This document shows, piece after piece, positions 9,376 to 63,033 of a DNA stretch of 64,000 bases. The notes under the pieces were generated by a model. It was not told the DNA's origin. It searched no databases and saw only the letters and a list, made by a program, of their open reading frames with translations. The position numbers and the translations under genes were made by a program. This DNA is from Sulfurimonas hydrogeniphila. GTDB lineage: Bacteria > Campylobacterota > Campylobacteria > Campylobacterales > Sulfurimonadaceae. Positions within the stretch are counted from its first letter, which is position 1; each line of letters starts with the position of its first letter. The stretch is taken from assembly GCF_009068765.1 (NCBI RefSeq), contig NZ_CP035534.1, positions 868,001-932,000 of the forward strand, written 5' to 3'.

Positions 9376-9765
9376 AATAATTATCTCTTATTTATATTTG
9401 AAGCATTATAATCTATTTTTTATTTTTGTATTAAAAAAATGACATTTTGTCATAAAATAGAAAGAGCCAATCACAGGGGGGGTAGTCCAATGGCATTAAG
9501 TTAAGTGGCTTTTTCGAAACCCGTACTTCAGTGCGGGCTTTGTGTCTTTCAAGACTAAGGCCTGGGTTAAAACCTAGGTTCCGAGAAAACATCAAGCTAT
9601 TTTCTTAACTTAATGGCATTGAGAGGGGTAATTTTTTTTTGCATAATATTTTTGCAACTCTTTATATTGACACATCAAACATCTGTTGCAGATTATTCTA
9701 CTTCCTACAAATTATATATAGAAAAGCTTAAAATGATACAACTGATAATATAAATATTTATCAAG
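9376..9765. other. Intergenic stretch between radA and the recombinase remnant
   Basis: 390 bases without a gene. The first 60 hold the minus-strand radA promoter. A run of seven G (9476-9482) precedes the inverted-repeat element (9487-9622). The remaining 140 bases are AT-rich, with a T9 run at 9632-9640; I see no open frame, tRNA or other structure there. Confidence 0.8.
9487..9622. mobile_element. MITE-like structured element, copy 1
   Basis: A 136-bp non-coding element bounded by inverted repeats: the left arm 9487-9505 matches the reverse complement of the right arm 9604-9622 at 17 of 19 positions. Inside are nested stems: an outer TTTTTCGAAACCC / GGTTCCGAGAAAA pairing, a 7-bp hairpin CCCGTAC-TTCA-GTGCGGG, a GTCTT/AAGAC hairpin and a CCTGGGTT/AACCTAGG hairpin. 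A second copy lies at 62785-62920 in the same orientation. GGGGTA occurs just outside both ends, possibly a degenerate target duplication. It has no coding capacity, so if mobile it would need a transposase in trans. Confidence 0.8.
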
Positions 9766-10059
9766 CTATAATTTTCCAAACTCCAACCACTTAATTCCCT
9801 TAAAAAGTTCCTTAACACTATACCCACTAAAATACTGCTGAGTAGTAGTGTCTTTATCAGGTTCATGTCCAAGTATTCTGTTTATTAAATCTTTCGGAAG
9901 TTTTTGGTGTACTGCATTTCTAAGCATTTGTGAACTTGGATTATGTCTCAGAGAGTAAAAAACTTGATTTTCTTCTTTTGTTACATATCTTCTAATTCCA
10001 CCCATGTGATTGAATATCCTTTTTACTACCTTATGTTCAACCTGCCTTAATGATAAATT
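9766..10059 (-). pseudogene. Tyrosine recombinase/phage integrase, 5'-truncated
   Basis: Only about the last 97 codons of a tyrosine recombinase remain. Visible are the box II region SLRHNPSSQML (R of the catalytic set plus H), the ILGHE motif and the C-terminal nucleophile region TTQQYFSGYS (Tyr). The N-terminal DNA-binding domain and the first catalytic Arg are missing. The reading frame stays open upstream of the first ATG (10005) to exactly 10059, where it abuts the TAA of the neighbouring ATPase gene (10060-10062). That junction suggests the recombinase was cut by the arrival of the ATPase gene or by a deletion. No intact integrase is near. Confidence 0.8.
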
Positions 10060-11244
10060 TTAATATAAAAACCCAAACAACCAGAGTGGAATCTTATTGC
10101 CGTGCCCGATTTCAATATCATCCGCAACAACAAAGCTGTCTGGTATATCTTTTATTTGTTTAAAAGTTTTATTTTTACTGCCTACTTCTACCAAATATTT
10201 ATTGTTTATTAAAAAATCACCTTTTGCAGGTACACTTAGAACATCATCGTCAAACATACTCATAAAAAAAACTTCTCTAATCGTACCTATCTCAATATTT
10301 TGGCAATACGCATAATGAAGATTCGTATTTCCCAAATAAAGTTTATCCGGCTTAGTGAAAATATTATCGCCTTTGGTTTTCGCTCTTAAAAGGTTAAGAA
10401 TTTTACCTCTTTTTAAATACTCCATATATTTATAGAGTGTATGGTAATCACTTGTACCTATTTTTACAGAGAGCTCTTTAATATTGATTTTAAATGGTTT
10501 AGATTCACATACAAATTTTATAAGCTTTTTAAGCTTAATAATTTTATCATACTCTATCGGAAAAATAGAGGGTATATCTACTTCAATAACCGTATTGATT
10601 GTCTCTTGGAGTCTAAGCAGATAACTTCCCTCATTTTCAAAATAAAAAGGGTAGTATCCCATTTTTAGATACTCCGTCCAATACTCATAAATTTTTAATT
10701 TGGAAGATATTTCATACGCTATATTTTCATGGTCGACAAAAAGTTTTTCATATGTAAAAGTTGGCAACTTTTTTGAGCTCTTTAACTCTATAAATTCTCT
10801 AAAAGACAGACCTTTCATATGGTATAGAACAGCTCGTCTGCTTAAATCTCCTTTAGAATTATCTAATTGCAATGCACTTGAACCAGAAAATATTACATGT
10901 AAATCAAGCATATCATAAATTTTTTTTAGCTCTATTTCAAAATTTTTATATTTATGAATTTCATCTATGACAAGTAGCTTCCCACCCTCTTTTGAAAAGT
11001 TGTATGCTATCTCAAACAATGATTCTATTTCTATTGCATCTGCACTAAAGTAAAGCTTTTTAGCAAGAGGCAGATCATTTTCTTGTAAATACTGTAATAA
11101 GAAAGTTGTTTTTCCAACACCTCTGGCACCTATGAGACCTATCATTTTTTGAGGAAAATCTATATTTTTGTGTATATAGCGCTTATAGGAACTTTTTAAA
11201 ACTCGTAAATAGTTCAGTTGATAATCTTTAAGAGTTTGAAGCAT
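10060..11244 (-). CDS. AAA-family ATP-binding protein (AAA_14/DUF4143 type)
   Basis: 394 residues. Walker A GARGVGKTTFLLQYL (about residues 36-50), Walker B LLVIDEIHKY (about 89-98) and a sensor-like IFSGSSALQL (about 117) define the ATPase. The rest matches the DUF4143-type architecture, with a winged-helix-like middle and a C-terminal nuclease-like fold (DFLINNKYLVEVGSK with a conserved Glu/Lys). Such proteins are common in accessory regions of bacteria and archaea and their role is mostly unknown. Base composition is more AT-rich than the flanks. A paired operator-like motif lies upstream. The gene contains a TTACATGTAA (10893). Confidence 0.85.
   Translation of the reverse strand: MLQTLKDYQLNYLRVLKSSYKRYIHKNIDFPQKMIGLIGARGVGKTTFLLQYLQENDLPLAKKLYFSADAIEIESLFEIAYNFSKEGGKLLVIDEIHKYKNFEIELKKIYDMLDLHVIFSGSSALQLDNSKGDLSRRAVLYHMKGLSFREFIELKSSKKLPTFTYEKLFVDHENIAYEISSKLKIYEYWTEYLKMGYYPFYFENEGSYLLRLQETINTVIEVDIPSIFPIEYDKIIKLKKLIKFVCESKPFKINIKELSVKIGTSDYHTLYKYMEYLKRGKILNLLRAKTKGDNIFTKPDKLYLGNTNLHYAYCQNIEIGTIREVFFMSMFDDDVLSVPAKGDFLINNKYLVEVGSKNKTFKQIKDIPDSFVVADDIEIGHGNKIPLWLFGFLY
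10893..10902. repeat. TTACATGTAA copy in the island ATPase
   Basis: Perfect palindrome read as Leu-His-Val within the ATPase domain, just before the IFSG segment. Its presence in an apparently acquired gene means the motif is not limited to core genes. Confidence 0.9.
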
Positions 11245-62756: not shown

Positions 62757-62784
62757 AGTTTGTAACCTCTTGTATTTTATAGGG

Positions 62785-62920
62785 TCAATGCCATTAAGTT
62801 AAGCAATTTTTTCGGAACCCGTACTTTAGTGCGGGCTTTGTGTCTTTCAAAATTAAAGCCTAGGGTAAAACCTGGGTTCCAAGAAAACATCAAACTTATT
62901 TCTTAACTTAATGGCATTGA
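62785..62920. mobile_element. MITE-like structured element, copy 2
   Basis: A 136-bp element, the same as the copy at 9487 in orientation and layout. The terminal inverted repeats (62785-62803 and 62902-62920) are perfect over 19 bp. Internal stems are kept: TTTTTTCGGAACCC / GGGTTCCAAGAAAA, the 7-bp hairpin CCCGTAC-TTTA-GTGCGGG, and CCTAGG/CCTGGG, where the two arms are exchanged relative to copy 1. The small GTCTT/AAGAC hairpin is lost. TAGGGT occurs on both sides (62780-62785 and 62931-62936). It lies between two divergent genes. Confidence 0.85.
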
Positions 62921-63033
62921 TTTTGTATGGTAGGGTATGAAAAAAGGGCTGATGCTTTGCTTAAGCGTGTAATTTACACAACTTGTATAAAAACATGATA
63001 CAATAGTGTTGAATTTAGTGAATAGAGTATTGT

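Follow-up and report, generated by a model that had tools for sequence, protein, structure and literature searches.

A short, strongly folding element without a gene stands twice in the 64,000-nucleotide stretch of Sulfurimonas hydrogeniphila DNA analysed here, which we call the window. What this element is, and which enzyme has moved it, is the question that the locus raises. A preliminary description had read it as a 136-bp element at 9487-9622 with 19-bp terminal repeats, either a non-autonomous DNA transposon (MITE) or a mobile structured RNA. It had considered the element too ordered for a REP-type repeat and had proposed to look for further copies, for a full-length parent between the same ends and for empty sites in relatives. 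In our view the element is almost certainly a MITE belonging to the IS4 subgroup of the IS4 family, which presumably was moved in trans, generated a 12-bp target duplication and carries a REP pair as cargo.

Borders, ends and fold of the element

The element as such was recognised correctly in the preliminary description, whereas its edges have to be redrawn: copy 1 spans 9488-9621, is 134 bp long and has terminal inverted repeats of 18 bp (CAATGSCATTAAGTTAAG). The features of both copies are given here with their positions in the window.

9476..9487, no strand: copy 1 left 12-bp target copy GGGGGGGTAGTC, decayed, 8/12 compared with the right copy
9488..9621, plus strand: MITE copy 1, whole element, 134 bp
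9488..9505, plus strand: copy 1 left terminal inverted repeat CAATGGCATTAAGTTAAG, in agreement with the consensus of IS4-subgroup ends, -AATR--------WTW----
9516..9539, plus strand: copy 1 inner REP hairpin 1 GAAACCCGTACTTCAGTGCGGGCT, genome 877516-877539; helix 2, 98% paired
9559..9582, minus strand: copy 1 inner REP-like hairpin 2, inverted GGAACCTAGGTTTTAACCCAGGCC; helix 4, 95.5% paired
9583..9603, plus strand: right subterminal AT-rich stretch AAAATAGCTTGAWGTTTT, matches the relatives' insertion sequence (IS) in its subterminal part at 17/18 positions, suggestive only (E = 0.017)
9604..9621, minus strand: copy 1 right terminal inverted repeat CAATGCCATTAAGTTAAG, the same sequence as either end of the 1587-bp IS in L287
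9622..9633, no strand: copy 1 right 12-bp target copy AGAGGGGTAATT
62774..62785, no strand: copy 2 left target copy ATTTTATAGGGT, 10/12 compared with the right copy
62786..62919, plus strand: MITE copy 2, whole element, 134 bp
62786..62803, plus strand: copy 2 left terminal inverted repeat
62814..62837, plus strand: copy 2 inner REP hairpin 1, genome 930814-930837
62857..62880, minus strand: copy 2 inner REP-like hairpin 2
62902..62919, minus strand: copy 2 right terminal inverted repeat
62920..62931, no strand: copy 2 right target copy ATTTTGTATGGT

Copy 1 has ends that are complementary at 17/18 positions, copy 2 at 18/18, and both copies have the same orientation, as described before. The window holds four matches to the end where 0.24 are expected, and none of 100 shuffled sequences reached four. 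The stems reported earlier were also confirmed, with RNA fold z-scores of -7.1 (copy 1) and -7.6 (copy 2) and 0/200 dinucleotide shuffles equally stable. Likewise, the reported lack of coding capacity holds, since the element contains no open reading frame of 60 or more amino acids. A search of a plasmid collection gave no match.

Copies in the host genome and in the genus

The host genome is a single 2.34-Mb contig that contains the window. BLAST with the element returned 75 matches in this genome, and the 18-bp end with up to three mismatches occurs at 39 sites, compared with 2 for a reversed-pattern control. About nine copies keep both ends. In a survey of the genus the element family was found in 7 of 120 genomes; G033 has about fourteen copies with 88-95% identity, G093 harbors a larger and more divergent subfamily, and the same element is present in a Sulfurimonas MAG (L146). 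The element is thus not confined to the window, and being short, non-coding, bounded by inverted ends and present in many copies it has the properties of a MITE. Together with the parents and empty sites described below, these copies support the earlier reading as a MITE.

The parent insertion sequence

The first clue to the transposase was a Clostridium locus in which the same ends flank one gene, assigned to the IS4 family by the profile NF033592 (172.9 bits, cut-off 115 bits). A full-length parent between the same ends does exist in relatives. In G098 (L287) both ends of a 1587-bp IS are identical to the MITE end over 18/18 positions, and in G093 there are six transposase gene copies in 1585-bp elements, five of them complete with both ends read (CAACGCCATTAAGTTAAG). 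The 454-aa transposases of the relatives score 141 and 153 bits against NF033592, above the same cut-off, and carry the YREK motif YSLRWGIETYYDLIK at residue 309. The parent IS is flanked in relatives by duplications of 10-11 bp. Members of the IS4 subgroup have ends of the form -AATR--------WTW----, a length of 1400-1650 bp, 10-13 bp duplications and the YREK motif (De Palmenaer et al. 2008, PMC2266710). The MITE end CAATGCCATTAAGTTAAG agrees with every stated position of this consensus, the parents of 1587 and 1585 bp with their single DDE/YREK transposase fall within the size range, and the duplications measure 12 bp in the genus and 10-12 bp elsewhere. Copy 2 has 23 bp in common with one parent IS end (TCAATGCCATTAAGTTAAGCAAT), and copy 1 matches the subterminal part of the same IS end at 17/18 bp, a likeness that is suggestive only because the stretch is short and AT-rich.

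In the host genome no IS4-subgroup transposase was found; the Clostridium IS4 transposase as query gave no match there and NF033592 gave sub-threshold hits only. Therefore the host copies look stranded, and their mobility in this genome today is only putative. We infer that the element was mobilised in trans by the transposase of the parent and that the parent has been lost from the host genome, where the copies of the MITE are probably stranded.

An IS4-like IS with a 426-aa transposase and a YREK motif is present in the host genome in 13 copies (L193, L195-L203, L206; for example 1919821-1921326) and was at first suspected as the parent, because one copy stands between MITE-like ends. It was rejected, having its own ends (CATAAGTATCTACACAAC) and an 8-bp duplication; the copy in question had inserted into a MITE. 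All copies of this IS that were examined have entered a REP hairpin at its loop, with the 8-bp duplication ACTTCAGT/ACTGAAGT, and some sit within the REP of a MITE that is itself placed in a REP.

Insertion sites and target duplications

Copy 2 is positioned between two divergently transcribed genes. Empty sites, that is the same flank without the element, were found in three genomes of the same genus (G043, G037 and G033). In all three, the flank alignments overlap at the copy 2 junction by 11-15 bp, and the G043 alignment has TTTATTTTATAAGGTAGGGTATG unbroken where the window reads ATTTTATAGGGT, element, ATTTTGTATGGT. The overlap and the unbroken sequence therefore indicate a 12-bp target duplication. 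The target, ATTTTATARGGT, is duplicated in the window, and the empty site of G043 reads ATTTTATAAGGT. At copy 1 no empty site was recovered, the relatives' DNA upstream of radA not being alignable beyond about 9463. A supposed empty site in the host genome for a G033 copy was rejected, as the orthologous place holds a different REP variant. In G093 the copy 2 site (L280, G093:C1:1385000-1386100) is occupied by a different insertion of ~290 bp with inverted ends of ~25 bp (AGTGCCTGACCAGAATAAATGACAT), so that insertions may be unusually frequent at this place.

The flanks of the element's ends in the host genome are significantly palindromic at a length of 12 bp only (0.433 versus 0.263 +/- 0.031; lengths 9 to 14 tested), with symmetry at 11 and 13 bp at background level. 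Intact 12-bp duplications at REP tips flank copies in L146, G113 and G033; the duplications at copies in the genus other than copy 2 (AGACTTTAGTCT, AGACTGAAGTCT, AGACTAAAGTCT, AGGTTGAAACCT, AGGTTTCAACCT) are REP hairpin tips. At several copies in the host genome the duplication is decayed or absent (2/12 in L002, 6/12 in L011). Copy 1 stands in a G run, and the parent IS of the relatives also enters G or C runs. Within the genus two kinds of target are preferred, 12-bp dyads at REP hairpin tips (AGACTNNAGTCT, AGGTTNNAACCT) and G-rich runs, a preference that is strong, although not exclusive. Targets in the genus also resemble the element's own interior, with a mean of 0.756 compared with 0.634 for flanks. 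Outside the genus this was seen in 1/33 cases, and hence the notion of an element that brings its own landing site applies to the genus and L040 only.

REP hairpins in the interior

The interior of the element consists of two facing REP hairpins, a REPIN-like pair that takes the place of the transposase gene. The earlier view that the element is too ordered for a REP was not borne out, as its inner stems are REP hairpins. The REP motif GGAAYCSGTACTTYAGTGCSGRCT occurs at 142 places in the host genome, with none for a reversed-pattern control, and these REPs often form inverted pairs about 47 bp apart or follow each other in 89-bp tandem steps. In G033 (C6:2200-2642) the REP unit forms a tandem array with one match per 89 bp. 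A RAYT-like gene of 169 aa (genome 1545209-1545719) has five REPs within 200 bp; its protein matches Y1_Tnp above the cut-off and NF047646 with 74.8 bits, just below the cut-off of 80. In the G043 element the first REP has been swapped for another REP sequence. Four copies in the host genome (L006, L007, L009, L011) lack exactly 12 bp of hairpin 2 between CCTAGGTT direct repeats, a loss of the kind that slippage at a palindrome is expected to cause.

Elements with the same ends in other hosts

The 16-bp core of the end was found at no fewer than 117 loci in species genomes. Single 16-mer matches are uninformative, because some 240 are expected by chance in 257 Gb; they were set aside, and only inverted pairs with duplications were taken as evidence. 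Among the matches listed there are 67 inverted end pairs 80-360 bp apart, one of them L146; judged by their record titles they come from about ten phyla. A duplication of 9-13 bp with at most one mismatch flanks 34/67 of these listed pairs, compared with 66/20000 swapped flanks. Their interiors vary between hosts: among the matches listed, 38/51 non-redundant, unrelated interiors fold at z < -3 versus 2/51 flanks, and in at least 22/67 the interior hairpins are also found outside the element in contigs of the same organism. Taken together, the recurrent duplications, the folding interiors and the matches to host hairpins suggest that IS4-type ends have taken up REP-like hairpins of their hosts repeatedly. 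The wider idea is that MITEs of the IS4 type form a widespread class which acquires REP pairs from its hosts again and again and inserts into REPs, convergently in about ten phyla; we put this idea forward tentatively and with less than even confidence. If recurrent capture were true, REPs would have a DDE-transposase route of spread beside RAYT, and every insertion would add landing sites.

Two observations concern particular hosts. In Pedobacter mendelii (L116:817-2291) a transposase fragment lies between IS4-type ends together with a short-chain dehydrogenase gene (259 aa) that is intact, possibly a gene-carrying derivative. MITEs with IS4-type ends are frequent in Ca. Thiomargarita nelsonii (JSZA02; L042, L051, L060, L128, L144, L148, L149). 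The published hupL MITE of this organism was described with an inverted repeat of 19 bp and direct repeats of 10 bp; no parent was found for it, and an origin from a PD-(D/E)XK system was suggested (PMC4853749). The hupL MITE may be a member of the IS4-type-ended family, and since such MITEs are common in these contigs, an IS4 parent is a lead. More generally, the 18-bp end and its IS4 parent offer a candidate origin of the orphan MITEs that abound in giant sulphur bacteria and in other phyla.

How the element might move, and alternative readings

In the mechanism that we propose, an IS4-type DDE transposase supplied in trans would bind both 18-bp ends and move the element by cut and paste, with insertion producing the 12-bp target duplication. 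Within the genus it would choose 12-bp dyads at REP hairpin tips and G-rich runs, and the element carries two inverted REP hairpins between the ends instead of a transposase gene. These REPs might have entered when a REP pair inserted into a deleted IS, or by template switching onto REPs during gap repair; these are the two routes that we favour.

One could instead suppose that the REP pair itself is what transposes, as a REPIN driven by the single-strand transposase RAYT, with the 18-bp ends incidental or added later. The RAYT-like gene with its five neighbouring REPs, the 142 REP places with their frequent inverted pairs about 47 bp apart, and REP pairs with the same spacer and without the ends in L010, L022 and L025 would fit this. 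However, both the junction of the empty site and the 12-bp duplications fall at the 18-bp ends and not at the REPs, so that transposition of the REP pair as the unit was not encountered for this element, and in other hosts identical ends enclose unrelated interiors. IS200/IS605-type transposition is not known to produce such target duplications. We consider this explanation improbable. Somewhat less so, yet still unlikely, is that the hairpin interior was selected as an insulator, which by termination or protection of mRNA ends makes insertions tolerable, the REP origin being secondary. The excess of strongly folding interiors among the listed matches speaks for it, in that hairpins are also a recurring feature of interiors without an observed REP copy in the host. 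But both copies in the window lie upstream of genes and none downstream, and selection on structure alone would not require the sharing of interior hairpins with the own host that was seen in at least 22/67 elements.

The structured-RNA option, in which the element acts as a regulatory RNA or is an RNA element that transposition has spread, draws on the very stable fold (z about -7) and on an alignment of 18 copies in which 91.4% of the cells are paired. Such stability is expected from inverted ends and REPs, though. In the 18-pair terminal helix 0/18 pairs are changed on both sides and mismatches are common among the 18 copies. The lack of double-sided changes indicates that the ends are conserved as sequence, as expected of transposase sites. 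The overall covariation score of 0.064 is close to the 0.053 of shuffled alignments (36/500), the middle stem is 82% paired, and the double changes in the REP 1 stem come from the exchange of the REP in one copy. With no match in an Rfam search of the element either, the earlier alternative of a mobile structured RNA is not supported and appears very remote compared with an IS4-subgroup MITE.

Relation to known repeat systems

Each component of the system, the IS4-subgroup MITE, REPINs, REP-targeting IS and the Thiomargarita orphan MITEs, is already known. With the IS4 subgroup the element shares the end consensus, a parent of ~1.59 kb, the YREK transposase, 10-13 bp duplications and target preference, which has been reported to be strong in some members (PMC2266710); it differs in having no transposase gene and an interior of host REP hairpins. 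Bacterial MITEs such as RUP, NEMIS, ERIC, Nezha, MITEAba12 and the hupL MITE are likewise 70-300 bp long and non-coding, with inverted ends and a parent usable in trans, but interiors of classical MITEs have mostly been seen as IS remnants and not as REP pairs. REPINs and BIMEs with RAYT (PMC3116915, PMC2817692) also consist of an inverted REP pair about 44 bp apart, with REPs clustered at the RAYT gene. Here, in contrast, the pair is enclosed by DDE-transposon ends and duplicated within that element. Insertion into REP hairpins is known for ISRm22 (IS4 family) and ISPpu9/10 (PMC1525189), which carry a transposase and no REP cargo, while the target preference found here is strong but not exclusive. 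Elements that both carry REPs and target them, and do so in one host after another, were not found described in the literature searched. REPs are thought to spread via RAYT, a domesticated single-strand transposase, and here they are also cargo of a cut-and-paste mini-transposon. The element joins two repeat systems that are usually treated apart, and it points to a second, testable route of REP spread.

The neighbourhood of copy 1

A truncated tyrosine recombinase close to copy 1 had been taken as a sign that this locus has received insertions. The C-terminal motifs of the remnant (9766-10005, minus strand) resemble those of integrases, and it has a weak profile match to phrog_7685 integrase (E = 0.12), while a Pfam search with it gave no match. 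The remnant plays no part in the element, because the ends and target duplications are those of an IS4-family DDE transposase. An AAA_14 ATPase gene (10060-11244, minus strand) adjoins the remnant near radA, and the two together are possibly the trace of an old island beside radA.
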